Assembly: GCA_023248215.1 (NCBI GenBank)
Contig: JAHFEW010000034.1
Coordinates: 4,059-42,608, forward strand
Direction: 5' to 3'
Length of the DNA stretch: 38,550 bases
Source: Nitrospira sp.
Lineage (GTDB): Bacteria; Nitrospirota; Nitrospiria; Nitrospirales; Nitrospiraceae
Shown here: one piece after another, positions 3,201 through 38,519 of the stretch
Numbering within the stretch: position 1 is the first letter of the stretch
Layout: the number at the start of each line of letters is the position of its first letter
Translations under genes and position numbers: made by a program
Notes under the pieces: model-generated
Seen by the model: only the letters and a program-made list of their open reading frames with translations
Databases searched by the model: none
Told to the model about the DNA's origin: nothing

Positions 3201-4594
3201 TACCGGAAGCCGTTCGTGCCGCTCAAGCCAGCACTGCTTGTGTTCGTGACCCCAGTAGCGGAGAGATCGAGGACTGCGCCATAATTCTGAATCGGGATTG
3301 GGAGGCTGTTGCTCATGAGGCCCAGCGCCCCCCCGTCGTACACGCCGTTGTAGCCGGTCACCGTCACCGTCGCGTCAGCCTTGTTGATGGTCGCGGTGGT
3401 CGTGCCGACTGAGGCGAGCGTGTAGTTGCCGGCGGCGGTGCCGGCGAGCGTGGCGCCGGTGAGCGTGACGGTCTTGCCGGTGGCGGCAGTCGCCGTGGCA
3501 AAGGTCGCGGTGCCGCCAGTCAGGCTCACGGTGGCCAGGTCGCCGGTGAGCACGCCCGTCAGCGTGCGGGTCAGCACCGTCGCGGCAATGCTGCCGTCGT
3601 AGGTCTTGTCGGCGGCCGTGAAACTGCCTGTGAGGGACTTCTTATTTACCGTCTGTGTGATGTTGGCTGAGATGCTGTTATTCCAGCCGGTGGTCCCGGT
3701 ATTACTCGAGATGTATTTGGCATTAATCGAGGTATGCGTGCCCGCATTGAGACTCGCGGTGGTGAGGCTAAAGCTCGATTGCCTGGAACTGACGAAGGAG
3801 GAGGTGCTGGTGGTCCCGAGTAACGTCGTGCCATCATAGAACTCCACCGTCCCCCTTGGTCGGCCATTCGTAGATACACCGGCCGTGACTATCGCGGTGA
3901 ACGTCACCGCAGTGCCGTATGTGGTCGTGGCGGCGCTGGAGGTCACTGCGGTTGTTGTGGACACCACCGCGTCCGTGAACGTCGTGTTGGCCACAGCCCC
4001 AGAATTTTGGCCGGTGGCGGTCAGTAGCAAAGACGCGCCCAGGTACTGGGGCTCCACATACCAAGAGGTGCTGATACTGCCGTTGACGGTGAGATCGTTG
4101 TCTGGCGCGATCCAGTCGGCCACGCCGTCAGCGTTGCGGTCGATCGCCTGTCCGTTTGCATCGAATTGCTGGTGGGCGGTAAATCCGCCCACGCCGTCGA
4201 TGACATACCACGGTGCACTGCCGGCAGGCGCGATGCTCGCTAGCTCGATGGGGCTATCGGCAATGCCGTCGGTGCGGGTCACCTGGAACTGCACCATTTC
4301 GCCTGCAGAGAATTGCGGGCCGTTGCCGTTCGTGTTCGACGTGGTGATCACCGCAGTCTCTCCCGGCGCATAGTCCGGGTGGTCGGTGGTCACCACCGCG
4401 GCCGTCACGTTCGATGCGCTCGCGGTCATCTGTGTCACCTCCAAGGGCGTGGCCGACAGCAACACGCGAGATTCCAGAGACTCCAGCACAAAGGCACTGA
4501 CGCGCGGCTGTGGCCGTTTCGCCACGGCTTCGCGCATGGTGCGCGGCTTGCGTCGGATGCGTGAATAGAGGTTCAACAGTTGTGTGAGCGTCAC
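1..4594 (-). CDS. Giant repetitive surface protein/adhesin, N-terminal part (runs off left edge)
   Basis: The minus frame is open from a GTG at 4594 to the window edge, giving 1531 codons without a stop. The GTG is chosen because AGGAGG lies 6-7 bases upstream. Near the N-terminus is the motif LESLESRVLLSA (about residues 38-49), like the LEPR-XLL motif of large surface proteins. Next comes a region of about 130 residues with no repeats. Then follow Ig-like domains (TYGTAVTFTA, GTVQFFDGTTLLGT), YDG-like domains (FTAADKTYDGS) and MBG-like repeats (VTVSGYTGVYDGAAHGATG). A LamG-like beta-sandwich segment occurs twice (about 1150-1700 and 2770-3320). There is almost no cysteine and much Thr/Ser/Gly, as in adhesins. 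The likely role is cell-surface adhesion or biofilm matrix. The secretion signal and C-terminal anchor would lie outside the window. The function is inferred from domain style, and several opposite-strand open frames here are shadows. Confidence 0.85.
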   Translation of the reverse strand, partial: MTLTQLLNLYSRIRRKPRTMREAVAKRPQPRVSAFVLESLESRVLLSATPLEVTQMTASASNVTAAVVTTDHPDYAPGETAVITTSNTNGNGPQFSAGEMVQFQVTRTDGIADSPIELASIAPAGSAPWYVIDGVGGFTAHQQFDANGQAIDRNADGVADWIAPDNDLTVNGSISTSWYVEPQYLGASLLLTATGQNSGAVANTTFTDAVVSTTTAVTSSAATTTYGTAVTFTAIVTAGVSTNGRPRGTVEFYDGTTLLGTTSTSSFVSSRQSSFSLTTASLNAGTHTSINAKYISSNTGTTGWNNSISANITQTVNKKSLTGSFTAADKTYDGSIAATVLTRTLTGVLTGDLATVSLTGGTATFATATAATGKTVTLTGATLAGTAAGNYTLASVGTTTATINKADATVTVTGYNGVYDGGALGLMSNSLPIPIQNYGAVLDLSATGVTNTSSAGLSGTNGFRYVNTLFPADQEAQVTLTGAPAAGSRHFVFVFLRTQNPNTANLNSYYIAYQENGTTGTWLIGRLVNNDAQTRALASSGTLLAAGDQIRADVVGNTITAYSYHNGVWKAEISYTMTGVDVVSGLGYLGLEMSGASPELKLTNMIGGGYTGVFSAGGAHGATGTAVGVLGESLTGLDLSGTAHTNAGTYTDPWTFTDFTGNYKNASGTVISTIAKANATVTVSGYSVVYDGAAHGATGAAVGVLGENLNASLNLGATFINVPGGTANWTFSGGTNYTDQSGSVAIVITSSSLVATTSTVRSSATTSTYGTAVTFTATVTAGVSTNGRPTGTVQFFDGTTLLGTASTSTAISSTQSSFSLTIATLNAGTHASITAVYTATGSFTGSSSANITQTVNKKSLTGSFTAADKTYDGSIAATVLTRTLTGVLTGDLATVSLTGGTATFATATAATGKTVTLTGATLAGTAAGNYTLASVGTTTATINKADATVTVTGYNGVYDGGALGLMSNSLPIPIQNYGAVLDLSATGVTNTSSAGLSGTNGFRYVNTLFPADQEAQVTLTGAPAAGSRHFVFVFLRTQNPNTANLNSYYIAYQENGTTGTWLIGRLVNNDAQTRALASSGTLLAAGDQIRADVVGNTITAYSYHNGVWKAEISYTMTGVDVVSGLGYLGLEMSGASPELKLTNMIGGGYTGVFSAGGAHGATGTAVGVLGESLTGLDLSGTAHTNAGTYTDPWTFTDFTGNYKNASGTVISTIAKANATVTVSGYSVVYDGAAHGATGAAVGVLGENLNASLNLSNTSHASVGTYTDTWTFSGGTNYTDQSGSVVDVISDSAIAATTTTTTVTSSAATSTYGTAVTFSAIVTAATGTTRPTGTMQFFDGTTLLGTASTSTAVSSTQSSFSLTIATLNAGTHASIHAVFTSTVGSFNNSASGNITQTVNKANATVTVSGYTGVYDGAAHGATGTAVGVLGENLSAGLNLGATFINVPGGTANWTFSGGTNYTDQSGSVAIVISDSAIAATTTTTTVSSSAATSTYGTAVTFSAIVTAATGTTRPTGTMQFFDGTTLLGTAST
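550..789. repeat. Ig-like module repeat, near-identical to 1-240
   Basis: Partner of 1-240. More diverged versions of the same module lie at about 2177-2410 and 3800-3990, so the adhesin has at least four Ig-like modules of this type in the window. Confidence 0.85.
834..2054. repeat. 1221-bp direct repeat, copy 1, inside the adhesin gene
   Basis: By reading, this block is identical to 2451-3671 at an offset of 1617 bases. It encodes an MBG repeat, the LamG-like segment, another MBG module and a YDG-like module. The unit length of 1617 is a multiple of 3, so the frame is kept. Confidence 0.9.
2451..3671. repeat. 1221-bp direct repeat, copy 2, inside the adhesin gene
   Basis: This is the partner of 834-2054. 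Identity breaks on the left just before AGGTTCAGGC and on the right just after TGATGTTGGCTGAG, where the Ig-like modules differ. The lack of silent differences points to recent duplication or conversion, or to an assembly effect. Confidence 0.9.
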
Positions 4595-5183
4595 AGCGCA
4601 ACCTCCTTTTGAAACAATCAGCGAATTCTTTCCCGAAAGCTGTTTTCCACGTCTAACTCGTTGACGCCGGCCTCAATATATACAATGGGCTTTTTCTTCA
4701 TTTGGGCAAAAGAACCATCAGGCACAATTACGTGGGGGCGCACTATACTTAACCCCAATGAATAAAAATATCCCTCAAAAGTGGTAGTAGGACGTTTGTG
4801 GGGCAGTAAGAGGTAATAACCTACTCGTGGTGTCCAGGTCGTCCTGGATCACTGTCCCCTTCGTCCTGGCAATGCAGCGCTTCCATGCGAATTTGAATTG
4901 GTGACGTTTCCACTCAAGGTTTGCGATTCTGCGACCCTCGGGTGACCTCGCTCACGAGGTCGCTGCAGAAACAAAGAGGTCGGGAACATTCTTGTTTAAG
5001 ATAACTTTTTATTAAAGCGCTCTTGGACAGCATGTGACGGGTCTGCCCGCTATCGACGGGGCATCGTTTGGCCCAGATAGTCTCCAGCAGCCGCGATTAG
5101 AGACGCTTCGACGTTCCACTGTCCGATTCGACGCGCACGCTGGTGTCTTGGACAGCAATGAGTCAGACTCTTTAAATGATTCC
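4595..5183. other. Non-coding leader upstream of the adhesin gene
   Basis: I find no convincing gene in this 589-base stretch. It holds the adhesin ribosome binding site (AAGGAGGTT on the minus strand at about 4602-4609) and A/T-rich sequence at 4670-4790 that could hold its promoter, though I could not settle on a -35/-10 pair. A perfect 7-bp stem with a 4-base loop lies at 4944-4961 and is not followed by a T run. The right part borders the IS110 remnant. Confidence 0.5.
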
Positions 5184-29165: not shown

Positions 29166-31409
29166 CTAGAGATTGGAAGAGGAAGTCGGTGGGTCAGATA
29201 CATAACAGTAGTACGGGTTAGCGGGGACTCTGGCTTTCTGCAGAACGATGCCCAGTATTTTCCCTCCCGCAGCCGTTAGACGTTGGATCGCCAACCGACA
29301 GGCTGCCCGGGTTGTCTGACCTGCACTGACGACCAAGAGAACGCCATCGACCTGGGTTGCTAGAACCACAGGATCAGTGACGGGAAGCACCGGCGGAGCG
29401 TCCAGAATTATGTGGTACCCTTCTTGTCGGCACCAATTCAGAAGATGGCTCATCTGTTTGGAGTGGAGCAATTCCGAAGGATTGGATGGGCGGTTCCCTC
29501 GGGGAATCACCGACAGGTTGCCGATTTCGGTCTGATGAATAATCTCTTCAAGTTCAGCCCGTCCAGCCAGGAAATCAGCTAGGCCTCTTGTGTTCCTTCC
29601 CTCACGTTGGACCCCATGGATGTGATCGTGAGCGGGTTTCCTAAAATCCGTATCAATCAGCAAGACTCGCGTATTCTCCAACTGAGCCACTGCCATCGCG
29701 AGATTCACTGAAAGAGTGGTCTTCCCCTCACTTTCCCCGGGGCTTGTTATGAGAACACAGGATGGCAACTCGCTGGGACTAGACAGCAACACATTGGTCC
29801 GGATGATGCGCACACTTTCAGCTGTGGCGCCTGAGGATTGGTCGGTGAGGAGATGCGCTCTGTTTGCAGTATCGGTTTTCGGCAAGAGTGGCATCACACC
29901 TAACAATGAGATCCTGGGCAGATATCGCTCCACATCGTCGGGCCCCTTGAGGGTCCGGTCACGAACTTCGAGGAAAAGAGCGAGCCCAACCCCTGTCATG
30001 AGCCCTACCAGAAGACCCAGTAGGATGTTTAACTGTTTCTTGGGTTTGACTGGGATGGAGCTTGGCACCGCAGGGTCGGCGAGATACACATTGCCGGTTC
30101 TCAGTCCAGCCGAGAGGTCGGCTTCTTTCGTCTGTTTCAGGAACATGTCGTATAAATGTTGACTGCTTTCGGCCTCCCGTTCCAAAATGCTGTACTCAAT
30201 TTCGTACTGTTCGAGCTTTATTTTTTCGTGCCTGTGACGCCCGGCTGCTTCCTTAATGGCTCGTACACGACCAAGCGCCGCGTCATACTCGTGTTTCACC
30301 GAGTCGAAAATTTTCTGAACCTCTTGTCGTATCCGTTCACGGAGATCCTGCAGCTCCGCTTTTGCCCGAGCCAGCTTGGGATGAAGGGAACCATACTTAT
30401 CCGTCAGCTCAGCTACCTGGCCTGACGCTCTGATTTCCTGCGCTCGTAGCGTTTGAATCAGCGGAGAACTCAAGACCTCGGTCGAGGCATCCAAACTCGA
30501 CCAGTCTATCTCTATCGTTCCGTTCTTGTCGGTCCGGTTACGCAACACCGATTGAATTTGTTCTAAACGCGATTGAGCTTCGGCCTTCTTCATTTCCGCC
30601 TTGACAAGCTCCGTATCCAATTCGCTGTTCGTTTGAGCGGTGAGTGTTTGCCGTTCGCGTCCTCCTAGCAACCCATGCTTCACGCGAAATAGATACAGCG
30701 TCTGTTGAGAGGCTTCAGCTTTTTTGCGCAACTCATCGAGATGGGTGGTAAACCACTGGGCGGCCTTTTCCTTCGAATGCGAATTCAGATCCTGGGTGCG
30801 TTCGATATAGACCGAGGCCAGCGTATTGGCGACGAGGGCGGCAAATTTGGGGTCCTCAGAAGTCGCGATGATATGAGCCAACCTTGCGCCTCGGATCGGC
30901 ATGATCTCAATGCTCTTGGTAAACCGCTTAACCAATCGATCTTCAGCCTCTTCCGGAGTCATCTCAGGCACCCCCTTGGCCGAAGCCAAGAATTCCTGGA
31001 ACGCAGCTGGCATCACTCGCACAAACATCGATGATATGGCAGAGGGTTTCGTCTTGTATTCCGGCTGCTCGGGCAGATGAAGAAGCTGTGCCGTTCGTTG
31101 AAGAACAAAATGACTTTTCATTAATTCAAACTGAGTCTGAAAGTATTCCGGACTGTAGTCCGGATGATAATAGGCCTTCTCCTTTTCCAAACCCCCAGGC
31201 CCTTCTTGGTCGATGACCACAGTGGCCTTCGCCTGATACAGCGGCGTCTGCATGTATGACCAGCCCCCCGCAACTCCTGCGAACCCAATAGCTACAGCGA
31301 CAATTAACCATACGCGCTGCCTAAAGACATCGGCATATTCGGCAAGGGTCTTCTCCGGGCCGTCAGCTTGGACTGATTCGAACGGAAGCATGTCAATATT
31401 ACGATTCAT
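29166..31409 (-). CDS. Wzc-like chain-length regulator and tyrosine autokinase
   Basis: This is a 747-residue protein. A Wzz domain with a first membrane helix (33-52) is followed by a long coiled-coil periplasmic region (about 210-430), a GNVR segment and a second membrane helix (about 459-480). A C-terminal CpsD/CapB-type BY-kinase follows: Walker A TSPGESEGKTTLS (555-567), Walker A' VLLIDTDFRKP (582-592), Walker B IILDAPP (667-673). The C-terminus carries a short tyrosine cluster, PYYCY (732-736), a likely autophosphorylation site. It would control polymer length and open the export channel. AAGGA lies 8 bases before the ATG, and the gene follows the barrel gene by 15 bases. Confidence 0.93.
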   Translation of the reverse strand: MNRNIDMLPFESVQADGPEKTLAEYADVFRQRVWLIVAVAIGFAGVAGGWSYMQTPLYQAKATVVIDQEGPGGLEKEKAYYHPDYSPEYFQTQFELMKSHFVLQRTAQLLHLPEQPEYKTKPSAISSMFVRVMPAAFQEFLASAKGVPEMTPEEAEDRLVKRFTKSIEIMPIRGARLAHIIATSEDPKFAALVANTLASVYIERTQDLNSHSKEKAAQWFTTHLDELRKKAEASQQTLYLFRVKHGLLGGRERQTLTAQTNSELDTELVKAEMKKAEAQSRLEQIQSVLRNRTDKNGTIEIDWSSLDASTEVLSSPLIQTLRAQEIRASGQVAELTDKYGSLHPKLARAKAELQDLRERIRQEVQKIFDSVKHEYDAALGRVRAIKEAAGRHRHEKIKLEQYEIEYSILEREAESSQHLYDMFLKQTKEADLSAGLRTGNVYLADPAVPSSIPVKPKKQLNILLGLLVGLMTGVGLALFLEVRDRTLKGPDDVERYLPRISLLGVMPLLPKTDTANRAHLLTDQSSGATAESVRIIRTNVLLSSPSELPSCVLITSPGESEGKTTLSVNLAMAVAQLENTRVLLIDTDFRKPAHDHIHGVQREGRNTRGLADFLAGRAELEEIIHQTEIGNLSVIPRGNRPSNPSELLHSKQMSHLLNWCRQEGYHIILDAPPVLPVTDPVVLATQVDGVLLVVSAGQTTRAACRLAIQRLTAAGGKILGIVLQKARVPANPYYCYVSDPPTSSSNL

Positions 31410-31424: not shown

Positions 31425-32873
31425 TCAAAACACCATCTGCGCAGACACCATGAAAGTGTTTGCATGGTATTTAAACTGATCTTGAGTTGAACTTCTGTCC
31501 TCAAAGATGTATTGGAACCCGAGCCCTAACCATTTTACGGCACGATATTTCACTCCAACAGCAACATTCTTTATGAGATCGGTCCTGTCGAATCCCGTTG
31601 TTGTGCTGGAAGCACCGGTAAATTTATCCTGCTCTACCCCCAGGTTGAGGGTTAACGTCGTGCTATCGGTCAACGTGTGGCTGGCCCCGAGGTTCACCCC
31701 GGTTGTCACATAGAACAGAGAGCCGAACACAACTATCTGTTGGATGGTGCGGTACGGCTGCAGACTGATCGTCAGCAATGATGTCGGCTTCCAATTTAGA
31801 TTTCCCATAAAAAAGAAATTCCCATAGGAATCTTTCTCCCTAGTAAACTGACTCAGCACCGGACCAGGCTGAATGACCTGAGCGCGAGTATATTTCAAGT
31901 GCTGATATCCGACCAGAATCTGTCCGGAAATCAACTCGCTCGGGTTCCACGTTGCTCCCCCATTGATCTGATACATGTCACTGTCGAGATTCTTGTTTTG
32001 GTCATAAATCGATTGGATGACTCCGACATTGGCCAGTACAGACGTTTTGCCCGTGGCATTGCCCGAAAACGTCATCCCGACATTGTTAATCAAAACGTCT
32101 CGAAAGATGCCCTGGTTATTATTCAGCATATTCCAGCGCATCGTTTGCGCGTTCAGCCTGACCGAGGATTGAGCCCCAACATATTCAGCCTGACCAGTGA
32201 AGCTATTGGTCGCCCATTTATTCACCTCGACAGCCTGGTTGTCCACCGCGGACCCTCTTGGATCATGTCCGAGCTTATGCTCGCCTTGCAGATCAAGTTT
32301 GAGGCCGCCTGGAAAATCGAATTTGAATCTTCCGGACGCGGTCTGATCCTGGACATCGTTCGACGAAGTGCGTTGGTAGTACTGAATATTGGTACGGTAA
32401 TCGATGAGGAAGCTATGGAATCCGCCGAACGGCAATTGTGCCTGGATGCCTGGTCCAAGGGTGGTCACAAAGTCACCCTTTCTACTGGTGTTGGTCCTGA
32501 ACACATTATCGGTGTACATTTGGGCTGCCCCCACGAACGGGTGTAGCCGGAGTGGGCCCACCAACACCCCGTCATCGGGAATGACTTGAGACAACCCTCC
32601 TGGGTAGAGAGGATAATAACCCGTGAGGGGCCATTCCGGGGTCAAGTAAAGAGCTCCAAAGAGGGCCGGATTGGCGAACTGAGACAAATAAGCCCACCCT
32701 GCTCCACCAAAGAGGGGCACTTGGCTTTGAGGAAGACCACTTGGTGCTGGGGGCTGCTGAGCCCAGGTTCTTTCTGCACACAGTACCCCCTGAAGGCAAA
32801 TAATGAGCACAGGGATGATGAGGATAATGAGGGGTCCTGCTCGCCGGGGAGAAGGATTCTTTCTGAATAACAT
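31425..32873 (-). CDS. Outer-membrane beta-barrel protein of the EPS system
   Basis: This is a 482-residue protein. The hydrophobic N-terminus (PLIILIIPVLIICLQGVLCA, ending TWAQ) fits a signal peptide cut near residue 39. The rest alternates polar and hydrophobic residues in strand-like blocks (YGNFFFMGNLNWKP, LTISLQPYRTI, YHANTFMVSAQMVF) and ends in the C-terminal Phe typical of outer-membrane barrels. It resembles the barrel proteins linked to exosortase-type EPS clusters (BBP2-like). It may provide the outer-membrane channel that the short Wza-like protein lacks. The start lies 85 bases after the stop of the disrupted antiterminator gene. Confidence 0.87.
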   Translation of the reverse strand: MLFRKNPSPRRAGPLIILIIPVLIICLQGVLCAERTWAQQPPAPSGLPQSQVPLFGGAGWAYLSQFANPALFGALYLTPEWPLTGYYPLYPGGLSQVIPDDGVLVGPLRLHPFVGAAQMYTDNVFRTNTSRKGDFVTTLGPGIQAQLPFGGFHSFLIDYRTNIQYYQRTSSNDVQDQTASGRFKFDFPGGLKLDLQGEHKLGHDPRGSAVDNQAVEVNKWATNSFTGQAEYVGAQSSVRLNAQTMRWNMLNNNQGIFRDVLINNVGMTFSGNATGKTSVLANVGVIQSIYDQNKNLDSDMYQINGGATWNPSELISGQILVGYQHLKYTRAQVIQPGPVLSQFTREKDSYGNFFFMGNLNWKPTSLLTISLQPYRTIQQIVVFGSLFYVTTGVNLGASHTLTDSTTLTLNLGVEQDKFTGASSTTTGFDRTDLIKNVAVGVKYRAVKWLGLGFQYIFEDRSSTQDQFKYHANTFMVSAQMVF

Positions 32874-33186
32874 CTTTATACAAACGGATCAAGCTGGAGC
32901 ATTTCCACTCCTGCCTTCTGGCTTCCCAGTGCAATGACTATGATGGGTCACACTCAGTTCAATTGATAGCTTGCAAGCTGATCGGCGACCCGCTCGCCCT
33001 CACGGGACTTTCCAGTGCCACCACATCGTCAGCGTCGATCCTCACCGTTGCGCCTTGCTGAATGAGCTGCACGCCAATAACCACATAGTGATGACCCTCC
33101 CTGCGGATCAGGCGACCTCTGATGCCCGCTAAAGGTCCCTTCGTGATTTCAACGAGTGACCTTCCCCCAATTCCGTGGACACCCGG

Positions 33187-34050
33187 TTAAGCCACAGCCG
33201 CCCTCGCTTCGAACTCGGCCGGGGAGTCATAGCCGAGGGTCGAGTGACGACGCTTCCGATTGTAGAACACTTCGATGTACTCGAAAATGTCCTGTGTCGC
33301 TTCTTCACGGGTCGCGTACTGCCGATGGTACACGAGCTCGCGCTTGAGTGTCCCGAAGAAGCTTTCGACACAGGCATTGTCCCAGCAATTACCGGTGCGG
33401 CTCATGCTGGGGGAGATGCCGTGCTCGCCGAGCAGGCGCTGGTAGCTCGTGGCGGCATACTGACTCCCGCGATCTGAGTGGTGCAGGAGTCCTGCGGTGG
33501 GTGTCCGGTTTGCCAGCGCCATGGTGAGGGCCCGCTCGGCCAGCTCCACGGTCAGACGGGAGCCCATCGCCCAGCCGATCACGCGGCGTGAGTACAGATC
33601 GAGGATCACGGCCAGGTAGAGCCAGCCCTCTGTGGTCCAGACGTAGGTGAGGTCCCCGGCCCACACCCGGTTGGGTTGGGCCACTGCGAACTGACGGTTG
33701 AGAGTGTTGGTCGTCACGGGGAACCGATGATGGGACTGCGTCGTGGCGCGCCACTTCTTCACGGTCTTGGCCCGGGTGCCGTGCTGACGCATCAGTCGGG
33801 CCACGCGATGTTCACCGACACGGTGCCCCTGCTTCATCAGGGCATCCCAGATACTGGGACTGCCATAGGTCTCGCGGGACTCTCGATGGATCACCCGGAT
33901 GGCCGAGAGCACGGTCCGGGCCGACACCGAGCGGGGACTCTCCGGCCGTGTGCGCCACGCGTAATAGCCCGCCGCTGAGACCGCGAGGGCGCGGCACATC
34001 AGCCGGATTGGATAGCGACGGTCATGTTCCTGGATCGCGCGGTATCTCAT
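33187..34050 (-). CDS. IS3-family transposase OrfB (DDE integrase core)
   Basis: This is a 287-residue protein. It starts MRYRAIQEHDRRYPIRLMCR (HTH_21-like region), then gives the rve core with WAGDLTYVWT (first Asp), LHHSDRGSQYA (second Asp) and NCWDNACVESFFGTLKRE (Glu), and ends RRHSTLGYDSPAEFE. All three catalytic residues are present. The product would normally be made as an OrfAB fusion by frameshifting from orfA. The ATG overlaps the TGA that ends the shifted orfA frame. Confidence 0.93.
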   Translation of the reverse strand: MRYRAIQEHDRRYPIRLMCRALAVSAAGYYAWRTRPESPRSVSARTVLSAIRVIHRESRETYGSPSIWDALMKQGHRVGEHRVARLMRQHGTRAKTVKKWRATTQSHHRFPVTTNTLNRQFAVAQPNRVWAGDLTYVWTTEGWLYLAVILDLYSRRVIGWAMGSRLTVELAERALTMALANRTPTAGLLHHSDRGSQYAATSYQRLLGEHGISPSMSRTGNCWDNACVESFFGTLKRELVYHRQYATREEATQDIFEYIEVFYNRKRRHSTLGYDSPAEFEARAAVA

Positions 34051-34084
34051 TGGGATTCCCTCGCGAAGAACGCCGCCGCACGTT

Positions 34085-34342
34085 TTAAAAATCCCGTTCC
34101 TGCCGCAGCGTCTCGTTTTCTCGTTTCAGCCGTGTCAGCTCGTCCTGCTCAGCCCGCCCCGCCTGGCGCGTGCGGGCCTGGGATTCGATCTGTTGCTGCT
34201 CGGTCCTCCAGCGGTACAGCACCGTGTCAGAAATCCCGAGTTCCCGGGCCACCTGGGCCACCGGCCGGCCCGATTCCCGCGTGAGCCGGACGGCCTCGGA
34301 CTTGAATGCGTCGGTAAACTGACGTCGCGTGACTTTTAGCAT
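34085..34342 (-). CDS. IS3-family transposase OrfA (HTH protein)
   Basis: The ATG at 34342 has GGAGG 5 bases upstream, better than the ATG at 34360. The product is 85 residues with a helix-turn-helix (VAQVARELGISDTVLYRWR) and a coiled-coil tail (LTRLKRENETLRQERDF). The frame ends at TAA right after a T5A4 run. Reading back one base gives LKRAAAFFARESQ, the normal family ending, up to a TGA that overlaps the orfB start. This is either programmed slippage or loss of one T. Confidence 0.85.
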   Translation of the reverse strand: MLKVTRRQFTDAFKSEAVRLTRESGRPVAQVARELGISDTVLYRWRTEQQQIESQARTRQAGRAEQDELTRLKRENETLRQERDF

Positions 34343-34879
34343 GATGACCTCCGATTTCATAATTCTCCCACTTATGGAGGTATCTATGAAATCAGGGGAG
34401 GGTCAGAGTGTCCCCTCTGGTGTTCCTTCAGACATAGCAACATAGGGGTCACATTTTAGCCCGCTCTTGGTCAGTCTTGTCAGTGCATCGATTTCTTCCT
34501 GAGGCACCGGTTCAGGCTGCCCTTCTCGGCTCACAATGTACGCCACTCCCGGCACGTCCAGCACCGTGATCCGTTCAGGTGCCAAAAATCTTGCGAAGCA
34601 ATACCCCGGAAAGAGCGGCTCCTCGATGAGCTTTTTGCGGTCCTTCCACTGACTCAAGCGCGTGCGCGTGGGAAGCAGTTGTTCGACCCCTTGCTGGCTG
34701 AGACGGTCACGGACCGCTTTTTCATGGCGCGCGCGTGTATGCAGCACGAACCACTGTTTTCCACCGCGAGTTCCACCGTGTTCTCGGTTCTCGATTTCCA
34801 TGTTCATTCGCACCCTTCGCACAACAAGCTCAACTCAAAGATAAAGCTTCGCCCTGCCAGTCACAGAATTGACTTCCAA

Positions 34880-34912
34880 CCTTTAGTAGAAGAAACAGCT
34901 ACTAACTAAAGG
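34880..34912 (-). promoter_or_regulatory. Imperfect hairpin in leader of antiterminator copy A
   Basis: CCTTTAGTAG pairs with CTAC-TAAAGG, with a 4-base bulge. An identical copy lies at 36078-36110. It is about 75 bases before the start codon, so in the 5' leader RNA. Confidence 0.45.
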
Positions 34913-34951
34913 GTGGCCTCTCTTACATGTTCCGCAAGGAGCAGCACAATA

Positions 34952-34963
34952 CCTCTTAAGAGG
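34952..34963. promoter_or_regulatory. 12-bp perfect palindrome upstream of copy A
   Basis: CCTCTTAAGAGG, about 150 bases upstream of the start codon, repeated at 36150-36161. It could be an operator for a dimeric regulator. Confidence 0.4.
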
Positions 34964-34970
34964 CACATTT

Positions 34971-35099
34971 ATAATCAACAGGGCCTTCAAGTCTCCTCCG
35001 CATCTGTATTACCCCCTGTTATTCATGATGATTTCTCATAATGCTGTGCCGACACCACGCGAAACTGGCGCATAGAAGCACAAAAACTAATCTCGATCC
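34971..35099. other. Diverged copy of the region upstream of antiterminator copy B
   Basis: This stretch aligns loosely with 36169-36290 (shared TTATTCAT and TTCATAA blocks) and has no gene. Confidence 0.45.
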
Positions 35100-35352
35100 T
35101 GGAATTGCTGGGACAACACGGTGGTAGAGTGCTTCTTCGTTATGCGGAAGGCAAGGCTTATTTAGGGGCGGCTGCACTACACTCGGTGGAATCTAAGAAC
35201 AGAGTATTGAATATTTGAGAGTCTGTTGCACAAACTCGATTTTGTGTTTCCACAGGCTTAAGGGAGTTGACAATCGGTCCAGGGTCAAACTTGATCTTGG
35301 GTTATCTCAGCCACATGGAGTTCAAGCAGCCTGCCGAGCATTCTATTTAGTT
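35100..35352 (+). pseudogene. IS3-family OrfB remnant between the antiterminator copies
   Basis: The sequence reads WNCWDNTVVECFF, matching the NCWDN-x-x-x-ESFF block around the catalytic Glu of IS3 transposases. It then runs through frame breaks to ILGYLSHMEFKQ, matching the family C-terminal TLGYLSP-x-EFE. The middle is deleted and stops are present. Confidence 0.7.
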
Positions 35353-35417
35353 GAGATTGGTTCGCTGCTCAGATTTGTGGTAGCTCTGCGAGCGAAGGTT
35401 ACTGCTCGTAAAACGAA

Positions 35418-36005
35418 CTACTGTAGGCTGAGCAGCGCTCCGCTTGCCTTCACGGGGTTTTCCAGCGCCACCACATCGGCCGCATCGATTCTCACCGTGG
35501 CACCTTGCTGAATGAGCTGTACACCAATGACCACACAGTGATACCCCTCTCTACGGATCAGGCGGCCTTTGATGCCCGCTAAAGGTCCCTTCGTGATTTC
35601 AACGAGTGTCCCCTCTGGTGTTCCTTCAGACATAGCAACATAGGGGTCACATTTTAGCCCGCTCTTGGTCAGTCTTGTCAGTGCATCGATTTCTTCCTGA
35701 GGCACCGGTTCAGGCTGCCCTTCTCGGCTCACAATGTACGCCACTCCCGGCACGTCCAGCACCGTGATCCGTTCAGGTGCCAAAAATCTTGCGAAGCAAT
35801 ACCCCGGAAAGAGCGGCTCCTCGATGAGCTTTTTGCGGTCCTTCCACTGACTCAAGCGCGTGCGCGTGGGAAGCAGTTGTTCGACCCCTTGCTGGCTGAG
35901 ACGGTCACGGACCGCTTTTTCATGGCGCGCGCGTGTATGCAGCACGAACCACTGTTTTCCACCGCGAGTTCCACCGTGTTCTCGGTTCTCGATTTCCATG
36001 TTCAT
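35418..36005 (-). CDS. NusG/RfaH/UpxY-like specialised transcription antiterminator, copy B (intact)
   Basis: This is a 195-residue protein. The start is ATG 36005, with AAGGG 5 bases upstream; a GTG five codons earlier has no better site. The NGN domain covers about residues 16-110 (KQWFVLHTRARHEKAVRDRL, EPLFPGYCFARFLAPERI, VAYIVSREGQPEPVP). A linker leads to a KOW domain (about 131-180: TLVEITKGPLAGIKGRLI, GATVRIDAADVVAL). Proteins of this group load on RNA polymerase at the start of long polysaccharide operons and stop premature termination. It is first in line before the roughly 30-kb minus-strand cluster. With copy A broken, it is the only intact one in the window. Confidence 0.92.
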   Translation of the reverse strand: MNMEIENREHGGTRGGKQWFVLHTRARHEKAVRDRLSQQGVEQLLPTRTRLSQWKDRKKLIEEPLFPGYCFARFLAPERITVLDVPGVAYIVSREGQPEPVPQEEIDALTRLTKSGLKCDPYVAMSEGTPEGTLVEITKGPLAGIKGRLIRREGYHCVVIGVQLIQQGATVRIDAADVVALENPVKASGALLSLQ

Positions 36006-36077
36006 TCGCACCCTTCGCACAACAAGCTCAACTCAAAGATAAAGCTTCGCCCTGCCAGTCACAGAATTGACTTCCAA

Positions 36078-36110
36078 CCTTTAGTAGAAGAAACAGCTAC
36101 TAACTAAAGG
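36078..36110 (-). promoter_or_regulatory. Imperfect hairpin in leader of antiterminator copy B
   Basis: Same sequence as 34880-34912. On the minus strand the loop side reads GTAGCTG, slightly like the GGTAGC core of RfaH-recruiting ops sites, but the match is too short to claim. Confidence 0.45.
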
Positions 36111-36149
36111 GTGGCCTCTCTTACATGTTCCGCAAGGAGCAGCACAATA

Positions 36150-36161
36150 CCTCTTAAGAGG
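36150..36161. promoter_or_regulatory. 12-bp perfect palindrome upstream of copy B
   Basis: CCTCTTAAGAGG, identical to 34952-34963 and about 145 bases before the ATG. Possible operator. Confidence 0.4.
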
Positions 36162-36301
36162 CACATTTCTAATCACTAGTGCTTTCAATTCTCTACCAGC
36201 ATTTGTAATAGCCCGTATTATTCATAAGCATTCTTCATAAAAGCGCTCATTCACCATGCAAGACCGGCGAATGGAACCGCAAGAGATGATCCCAGTTCCA
36301 A

Positions 36302-36350
36302 AATTGCTGGGACAACGTGGTGACAGTGAGATTCTTTGTTACGCGAATAC
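36302..36350 (+). pseudogene. Short IS3-family OrfB remnant upstream of copy B
   Basis: It reads NCWDNVVTVRFFVTR, the diverged counterpart of the remnant at 35100, so the two antiterminator copies were probably duplicated together with this fragment. Confidence 0.55.
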
Positions 36351-36365
36351 AACGCTCATTCAGGA

Positions 36366-36584
36366 GCGGAATCGTTCAATACCACGCTACGACGGGAATG
36401 CCTCAATGCGCACTGGTTCGAGTCCCTGCATGACGCCAAAGAATGCATTGAGGCCTGGCGGCGCGAGTATAACGAGAGTCGCCCTCACCGGGCGCTCCAA
36501 GATCGAACGCCAGAGGAATTTGCCAAGGAGGTCGCGGAGAATCATCTCTGCGAGCTCATGGTCACCGCTGGAAACTCTTCCTAG
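36366..36584 (+). pseudogene. IS3-family OrfB C-terminal remnant (different subgroup)
   Basis: About 70 residues (ESFNTTLRRECLNAHWFESL and then EAWRREYNESRPHRALQDRT, PEEFA) match the C-terminal end of IS2/IS51-like transposases, including the region around the catalytic Glu. The N-terminal two thirds are missing. Confidence 0.8.
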
Positions 36585-36718: not shown

Positions 36719-37309
36719 TTAAGTTGAAGCCGATTTTTCTACTAATCCCAAACGTCTATCCCCTCTTTTCCGGATGAGTCGTGCCGGGTTGCCACCAACA
36801 ATGCAGTATTCATCAACGTCCTTGGTTACCACAGCCCCCGCGGCCACAATTGCTCCCTTTCTTATTCTGACCCCATGCATGATAATCGCCCGCGACCCTA
36901 TCCAGACATCGTCTTCAATGACAGTCTTTGGATAAGTCCTACAACCCTGGAGCATCATCGGTCTTGTGACATCCTCATAATTATGACCGATGTCAAGAAT
37001 CATGACTTCTGGAGCGATCATGACATAATTATGCACGTCCACATTACGGAGACGACAGTGCTCTCTGATATGAACATAATCACCGATGGTCACATCGCGT
37101 CCACTCCCAATCTTTACACCCGACGATACTTCCAGGCTCCTGCATCGTCCACCAACCATTCTTCGAACGCACATGGCCCGAAATCTCATGAAATACTTGC
37201 CGAAAGCAAAGGGCGAATCGGGAAGCTTCGTAGCCAACACGTGGTATAGAATGGTGAAAAATGTTTTCATGCTCCACTCTGTTGATAGCAGTGATCGGCT
37301 AATTCGCAT
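36719..37309 (-). CDS. Hexapeptide-repeat acyltransferase (WcaF/serine acetyltransferase-like)
   Basis: This is a protein of 196 residues from the ATG at 37309, or 183 from the ATG at 37270. Neither has a good ribosome binding site; the first overlaps the end of the LuxR-type gene by 11 bases, which favours translational coupling. The left-handed beta-helix is visible as hexapeptide repeats ([36 protein letters not shown]-like, [17 protein letters not shown]) ending in the usual [13 protein letters not shown]. The active-site His is in DIGHNYED. Such enzymes O- or N-acetylate sugars of EPS or lipopolysaccharide from acetyl-CoA. It acts in the cytoplasm. Confidence 0.9.
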
Positions 37310-37577
37310 GAGTGAGCTGAAAGATCTTCGTCAGCAAGGCAGTCCGACGATGAATCTTAAGCCGATAGAAAATATCTCGCAGATGCACCTTAACGGTATA
37401 CTCTTCAATAAGAAGCTTTGTTGCGATTTCACGATTAGACAAACCCCGCATGACTAACACTACGACCTGCTGCTGGCGTGGTGTTAAACCACACGTGGCG
37501 AGTCTTGCATGAAGGTCTGCTTCGTAAAAGCTTAGACTCTGGTGGCCCAATTTTCTCTTTTGACGACATTCATTCAC
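37299..37577 (-). CDS. Small LuxR/GerE-type HTH regulator without a sensor domain
   Basis: This is a 92-residue protein. The start is a GTG at 37577, with AGGAGG 5 bases upstream. After about 28 residues comes the GerE helix-turn-helix: [20 protein letters not shown] (30-49), [20 protein letters not shown], and a C-terminal helix. The Thr-Pro-Arg start and V-K-x-H-L-x-x-I-F recognition helix fit the family well. There is no receiver or autoinducer domain, and none is seen upstream. It overlaps the acyltransferase gene and points towards the EPS cluster, so it may regulate it. The target is unknown. Confidence 0.88.
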
Positions 37578-37981
37578 TTGAACCTCCTCGCACGGCGTTT
37601 CCTCATCAGTGTCCTACCCGCCGACAGCTGCCTTAAACCACAGGACCGCACCCCGATAGGTCAAACCCGCTAAGTCAATCCAGCCTAACTGGCAATAAAG
37701 TTCGTTTAAAATGAATAGACCAGTCCAGATCCTCTTAGCAACGCTACAGAAGCAGAAGATTTGCCACTAAAGAGGTATTGATATCTTTGTGCCCACTTAT
37801 TTTCCACTTATAGCGGTCTCCTAAACAGGTGGATCATCGGCGCGGACGTGATTGCCCAGCATGTTCAAATCCGGTGAGACCGTCCGCTTCCCAATTCACC
37901 ACATGTACCCTCGGGCGAATCTGAGCCAGGCAAGAAGAGAAAAGTGAATAACCAGCGTCTCCAGGTTAAAAAGGAGGATCG
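37578..37981. other. Non-coding stretch upstream of the LuxR-type gene
   Basis: 404 bases. It holds the AGGAGG ribosome binding site of the regulator and presumably its promoter. I found no other gene and no clear repeat. Confidence 0.45.
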
Positions 37982-38429: not shown

Positions 38430-38519
38430 TGGTGCCGGAGGCCGGGATTGAACCGGCATGGACCTTTTGGGTCCGAGGGATTTTAAGTCCCTTGCGTCTG
38501 CCAATTTCGCCACTCCGGC
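38430..38519 (-). tRNA. tRNA-Leu (anticodon UAA)
   Basis: The 90-nt cloverleaf includes an encoded CCA (38430-38432). The acceptor stem GCCGGAG pairs with CTCCGGC, the T arm reads GGTTCAATCCC, a long variable arm is present (CGGACCC-loop-GGTCC), and the anticodon loop CTTAAAA carries TAA. The discriminator base is A, as usual for leucine. The plus-strand-looking MAKLADARDLKS frame across it is a common false gene. Confidence 0.95.

Follow-up and report, generated by a model that had tools for sequence, protein, structure and literature searches.

Whether a polysaccharide cluster stays under the control of its own antiterminator after an insertion sequence (IS) has cut the gene next to it is the question raised by a 38.55-kb stretch of Nitrospira sp. 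DNA (the window). The window takes up one end of a contig of 42.6 kb, and the genome comprises 4.69 Mb (199 contigs, completeness 99.96%, contamination 3.93%). The polysaccharide cluster runs on the minus strand from 32873 to 6284 (26.6 kb). At its head, ahead of an outer-membrane barrel gene, stand two tandem NusG paralogs of the UpxY type, the cluster-proximal copy A, which is split by an IS, and copy B. The original prediction for this locus held that the gene controlling the cluster in cis was simply gone. This is not borne out, as B is unbroken and its NGN half identical to that of A, and cis control does not appear to be lost either: both leaders keep a NarL-like box and a site resembling the ops element of RfaH, and only the KOW part of A is missing. 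With an unbroken B and both sites preserved, antitermination of the cluster by B probably continues. We propose that the ops-like element, which was absent from the earlier account, is the recruitment site of cis-encoded UpxY proteins. Throughout this locus, we infer function from the DNA sequence.

Copy B (35418..36020, minus strand, 200 amino acids) scored 112.9 bits against the UpxY model NF033644 (cutoff 100) and 70.2 bits against PF02357, whereas the cut copy A stayed below the UpxY cutoff with 76.8. The scores of the window protein against the models for RfaH (TIGR01955, 60.2, cutoff 144.5), NusG (TIGR00922, 28.5, cutoff 135.7) and LoaP (NF033641, 56.5, cutoff 125) were all below threshold. 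By family score and by its place at the head of a polysaccharide cluster the gene belongs to UpxY; the predicted tandem pair of NusG/RfaH-like genes is thus present, and is assigned here to the UpxY type. UpxY reportedly keeps transcription from ending prematurely in the leaders that precede upxY (PMC7819879). The same two features, score and position, are shared with the UpxY proteins of Bacteroides capsule operons, from which the present case differs in phylum, in the tandem copies and in the conserved ops-like element. With LoaP it has in common that a NusG paralog adjoins its target cluster; it differs in the low score and in that no structured leader RNA was found at B, whose leader folded no better than shuffles (z 0.24). 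A leader RNA structure was for this reason rejected as the target.

When the IS is omitted, A and B share a single exact run of 599 bases (35570..36168 in B; 33120-33156 and, as the main part, 34409..34970 in A), which contains the box, the leader and the NGN-coding half and is bordered by diverged flanks. An ungapped comparison gave 147 differences over 926 positions, a count inflated by an indel past the 5' edge of the tract; when 147 differences were placed at random 20,000 times, the longest run never exceeded 115. In a gapped alignment, which has one surplus gap column at the IS join, there were no substitutions within the tract, but 3, 13, 19 and 17 per 50 columns outward from its 5' edge and 7, 8 and 10 outward from its 3' edge; 21 of the 125 positions right after the tract on the 3' side differ. 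This steep rise on both flanks upholds the earlier claim of a 599-base identity inside diverged surroundings. The step in divergence is explained best by gene conversion, or by recombination that replaced the middle. Prior to the insertion, A could be read as 203 uninterrupted codons. Between the 3' parts of A and B there are 18 synonymous and 13 further substitutions (of these 13, 3 in the stop codon of B), a pattern that we read as suggesting selection on both copies. Just upstream of B, where the similarity between A and B stops, lies a remnant of another IS3-like transposase C-terminus (36336-36584, plus strand, PF13683 73 bits), which may have helped the duplication.

A repeat of this kind can also arise in assembly, if a 599-base repeat is misresolved, if a single consensus is imposed on two copies or if strain variants are joined. 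The number of contigs, the level of contamination and a contig end only 2.4 kb from B would fit such an origin. However, both copies lie on one contig with distinct flanks all round, and the IS junction is clean and has its target duplication, which makes an artefact very unlikely in our view.

The element within A (33157..34405, minus strand, 1,249 bp) contains orfA (34085-34360, PF01527) and orfB (33187-34050, NF033516), the product of the latter scoring 365.8 bits against an NCBIfam IS3 cutoff of 160. Its terminal repeats agree at 20 of 27 positions, and a GAG target duplication can be read directly from the sequence (33154-33156 and 34406-34408). Transposase model, terminal repeats and short target duplication place it in the IS3 family, to whose members it bears likeness in OrfA, OrfB, terminal repeats and 3-bp duplication without anything unusual; that the copy next to the barrel gene is split by an IS3 element with a GAG duplication was therefore correctly seen. 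Its best other match in this genome is 70% identical, and relatives elsewhere in family genomes reach up to 88%. Because the identical tract extends on both sides of the IS without later change, the IS must have entered after the homogenisation, and recently, which is the order that had been predicted.

The insertion divides A into a 5' part with the NGN domain (34403..34822, minus strand, 139 amino acids, PF02357 71 bits), which is ended by the terminal TGA of the IS, and a severed 3' part with the KOW domain (32959..33156, minus strand), into which the reading frame continues once the IS is omitted. In a UpxY structure predicted from an alignment of 42 sequences (mean pLDDT 81.1), residues 23-128 form the NGN domain, confidence is low at 132-135 and the KOW strands begin at 138; the insertion point, after codon 139, is the start of the first KOW strand in this model. 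The NGN domain is complete in A and the KOW part alone has been removed, and the product would be an NGN-only protein at most, which could be inert, helpful or competing. A living copy A, whose NGN-only product binds polymerase at the shared sites and aids or competes with B, would be in keeping with the complete domain, with a cut at the predicted start of a KOW strand and with a leader and start identical to those of B. As the insertion is too recent for selection to show, we regard this as distinctly unlikely.

The barrel gene (31425..32873, minus strand, PF10082 106.8 bits, with an EpsL-like C-terminal stretch below cutoff) is the first cluster gene after A. Among the 175 genomes of the family, a search at E 1e-40 detected it in 17, this one and 16 others. 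When related genomes were compared for one or two copies, as had been suggested, two UpxY genes were seen at none of the 17 barrel loci in other genomes, within the stretch examined, although a second copy could be missed in G165, whose stretch stops 155 bases before the UpxY match. Fifteen of these loci have one same-strand UpxY gene upstream, in the place that is taken by A in the window, and 7 of them also have, divergently oriented upstream of the UpxY gene, a full NarL-type response regulator. The two without a UpxY gene upstream are a G164 contig, on which 2.7 kb lie upstream, and a distant G157 locus. Among the 150 UpxY matches listed, A and B form the sole pair within 20 kb. From these comparisons, the tandem pair looks like a change in this lineage. 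Downstream of 80 named UpxY loci, no homologs of the barrel protein or of the Wzc-like chain-length determinant with tyrosine-kinase domain (29166..31409, minus strand, TIGR01007 157.3 bits, cutoff 108.05) were found at E 1e-4 within at most 8 kb, often less, and these 80 UpxY genes thus appear to serve other clusters.

The ops-like element was found by aligning five UpxY leaders, which share a conserved block of about 24 bases whose core, GGGCGAAGCT, is also present in both window leaders. In the pattern scan the window element, AGGGCGAAGCTTTATC, lies at 36038..36053 ahead of B and, with the same letters, at 34840..34855 ahead of A (minus strand in both cases). It belongs to a motif of the approximate form TGTAAGTGAGAGGGCG(A/G)AGCTNTG, i.e. 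the 12-mer GGCG(A/G)AGCTNTG. The core occurs exactly in 47 of 99 leaders, compared with 0.1 expected from shuffles. Within 1,200 nucleotides (nt), GGCGNAGC was found upstream in sense orientation in 82 of 98 regions, as against 13 in antisense and 10 downstream. With L071 and G164, in which position 1 of the element is changed, the total comes to 84 of 98 UpxY genes. These regions are not all independent, the 83 sites corresponding to 66 distinct 32-mers. The remaining 14 comprise L080 and L106, which have less than 330 nt upstream, L122 and L126, which have variants, and ten that show nothing.

A scan of the 175 genomes yielded 82 sites in 68 genomes, while the reversed pattern gave 30. Directly upstream of a UpxY gene lie 64 of the 82, namely 58 according to the listed UpxY matches (44 within 125 nt, 14 at 482-816 nt) and six more; the distance from element to gene is about 30 to 840 nt. 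The only perfect matches in this genome are those ahead of A and B, and contig C61 has one with a single mismatch. The other 18 sites consist of one 4.95 kb upstream of a UpxY gene, one at a contig edge, 13 that are chance-like and 3 outside the check (G152, G172 and G174). Sites acting in trans were considered for the 24 of the 82 that are not near a listed UpxY gene, and were rejected. One of them (G060:C23) precedes a UpxY gene after all. Of 20 further sites, five are followed by a UpxY gene after 28-117 nt and one after 4.95 kb, one meets the contig end, and the other 13 are without the flank and without UpxY in the stretch, 12 of them inside frames of at least 150 codons. In four of the 13 (L234, L236, L237 and L238) the 15-base core sits in one conserved coding frame that recurs across several genomes, again without the flank.

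Consensus pause sites follow the formula G-11 G-10 T-3 Y-1 G+1. The E. coli ops12 sequence is GGCGGTAGCGTG, in which TG at positions 11-12 induces pausing, C3 pairs with G8, and G5 and T6 bear base-specific hydrogen bonds to RfaH (PMC5995543, in the part available). The UpxY element does not match these letters: positions 1-4, 11 and usually 12 agree, and positions 5-9 do not as a block. The TG is placed as in ops, the variable position being 10, and a pause-type TG is the rule, with T at position 11 in 63 and G at position 12 in 48 of the 66 distinct sites. GCG(A/G)AGC fits a class of DNA mini-hairpins in which two or more G-C pairs carry a GNA or GNNA loop; one of them, GCGAAGC, melts at 78 C (PMC4686876, in part). 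The ops interior GCGGTAGC is compatible with the GNNA type. Although the pattern did not constrain position 5, which is the N of the GNA loop, every one of the 66 distinct sites has A or G there. A search with the inner pair unconstrained returned C-G in 76 of its 80 matches. The paralog on contig C1 reads ACGAAGT, with two changes and the outer pair retained. To the left a flank, TGTAAGTGAGAG, is conserved up to 12 bases further upstream. The likeness to RfaH and ops, as far as the latter is covered by the source, lies in an NGN-KOW protein, GGCG at 1-4, TG at 11-12 and a potential GC-loop-GC mini-hairpin in the interior. The differences lie in the loop (GNA here, GNNA in ops), in positions 5-9 and in the range of action, since RfaH acts on unlinked operons, whereas the UpxY sites are found almost only ahead of the UpxY gene itself.

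The two variant leaders were inspected individually. L122 (Ca. Methylomirabilis) reads TGTAAGTCAAAGGGCGGTAGCTTATC about 118 nt before the codon of UpxY residue 23 and combines a Nitrospira-like flank (11 of 13) with the E. coli ops interior. L126 (Planctomycetota) reads TGTAAGTGAGAGGCCCATGGCATGCC about 121 nt before that codon and matches the flank in 13 of 13 positions; its potential hairpin, assessed visually, is a different one. The flank of L122 alone is not decisive, because the antisense background also hit 11 of 13 in 1 of 98. In a profile scan L122 reached 8.7 and L126 10.5 against a 95% background value of 0.7, yet one of 193 background stretches scored 32.0. We give slightly better than even chances to the view that recruitment of the cis-encoded UpxY proteins in the Nitrospira family relies on a dedicated pause element with the hyperstable GNA mini-hairpin d(GCG(A/G)AGC) as its interior and the conserved flank beside it, that ops is a GNNA version of this design, and that the L122 and L126 loci represent an exchange of the hairpin within one frame.

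Near the upstream end of the identical tract lies a palindrome, TACCTCT-TA-AGAGGCA, which is real and rare. Allowing up to 2 mismatches, the pattern was found four times in 4.69 Mb, each time perfectly, and a reversed control gave 2. The four boxes lie ahead of A (34948..34965), ahead of B (36146..36163), ahead of a gene in the window that encodes a NarL/LuxR-type helix-turn-helix (HTH)-only regulator (box 37762..37779; gene 37299..37577, minus strand, 92 amino acids, GerE domain, PF00196 53.3 bits, no receiver found) and ahead of a second HTH-only gene on contig C1. NarL recognises the heptamer TACYYMT in a 7-2-7 layout (PMC4886647, in part). The NarL output domain is able to activate on its own from positions -40 to -49, and the box resembles an engineered NarL site, TACCCCTAAAGGGGTA (PMC4549865). 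Unlike NarL, the regulator here is without a receiver domain, and its binding to the box is a prediction from this resemblance; by analogy, we infer that it acts as an activator of both UpxY genes and of its own. As a general feature of UpxY loci the box was rejected, and a perfect palindrome common to other UpxY leaders was likewise rejected, none being consistent.

Several observations weigh against the explanation offered here. No match to the box was found in loci L023-L131 at up to 3 mismatches, so that the activator step is supported by this genome only. Consensus scans at this locus gave 3 sigma-70 promoters and 5 terminators, compared with 3.6 and 5.3 in shuffles, and are not above chance. 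The ten UpxY genes with nothing like the element include two that are labelled Nitrospirae, the rest belonging to other phyla. The window copy itself has TA at 11-12, i.e. A and not G at position 12, and ViennaRNA with DNA parameters predicted no hairpin in the element. Finally, in the class of sites near the gene, positions 10-12 are GTG or ATG in 40 of 52, often as the UpxY start. This last count, with GAGGG 7 bases ahead, would also suit an element that works in translation or as RNA, be it as Shine-Dalgarno sequence plus start codon or as a protein or RNA site. But 14 of the 31 far-class sites have no start codon at 10-12, and a translation signal can thus not cover all sites. The frames that ensue there are short and mostly dissimilar, the flank is conserved 12 bases further upstream, and the distance to the gene varies widely, as given above. 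We think a role in translation or as RNA unlikely. In far-class leaders with the element about 400-840 nt ahead (e.g. L063, L069, L081 and L094), the following stretch often translates as YLVYLV-like repeats, which represent a short repeated DNA unit.

As a whole, we consider the following course of events reasonably probable. Its first part is shown by the sequence: a UpxY gene at the cluster head was duplicated in tandem, the block of box, leader and NGN-coding part was made identical, and the IS3 element then entered A at the start of its KOW part. The HTH-only NarL-like protein would bind the 7-2-7 box, and transcription would start. Polymerase would pause at the TG of the 12-mer, where the non-template strand may fold the GCG(A/G)AGC mini-hairpin; the NGN domain of UpxY would dock on it as RfaH does on ops and ride the polymerase through the 26.6-kb cluster. 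B would thereby antiterminate the cluster, also across the IS, whose genes run in cluster direction. The opposite outcome, in which loss of the cis antiterminator by the barrel gene and polarity of the IS leave the cluster poorly expressed, draws on an IS that separates the A leader from the barrel gene and on an A without a KOW domain. We see little chance of it, as B is intact and has NGN domain and leader in common with A, both ops-like sites are kept and the long frames of the cluster are still open. The simplest expectation is that B continues to antiterminate.

Two further loci of this genome contain related genes. On contig C61 (L019, 3138-6882), a second UpxY gene, 44% identical, is followed by two polysaccharide-export-like genes; an ops-like element lies at its start codon, and a NarL-type response regulator is encoded divergently. 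Contig C1 (L018, 467-942 and 3569-3908) holds a degraded paralog of the cluster head. Here an HTH-only gene (85% identical), which has a perfect box of its own, is followed by IS debris and then by the leader and the N-terminal portion of a third UpxY gene (74% at the DNA level); a full NarL-type response regulator (4267-5112) comes next. A tRNA-Leu (anticodon TAA) is encoded at 38430-38519 (minus strand) in the window, at the contig end and near the cluster head.

A 2020 survey of NusG paralogs, in the part available, states that recruitment modes are unknown for those encoded within the operons they regulate (PMC7593976). In the portions seen of the open-licence literature on NusG, antitermination and exopolysaccharide in Nitrospira and on ops-like UpxY sites (including PMC7593976, PMC13015549 and PMC7819879) there was no report of such an element, and among the matches listed for the motif strings in that literature only other subjects appeared. 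At the locus described here, the story shifts from a broken regulator to control that is probably retained through the surviving copy. The look of ops may have a reason in a pause frame built around an unusually stable DNA mini-hairpin. With a conserved and oriented element that occurs almost only before UpxY genes, has a defined pause position and contains a testable mini-hairpin, the question of recruitment becomes open to bench experiment.

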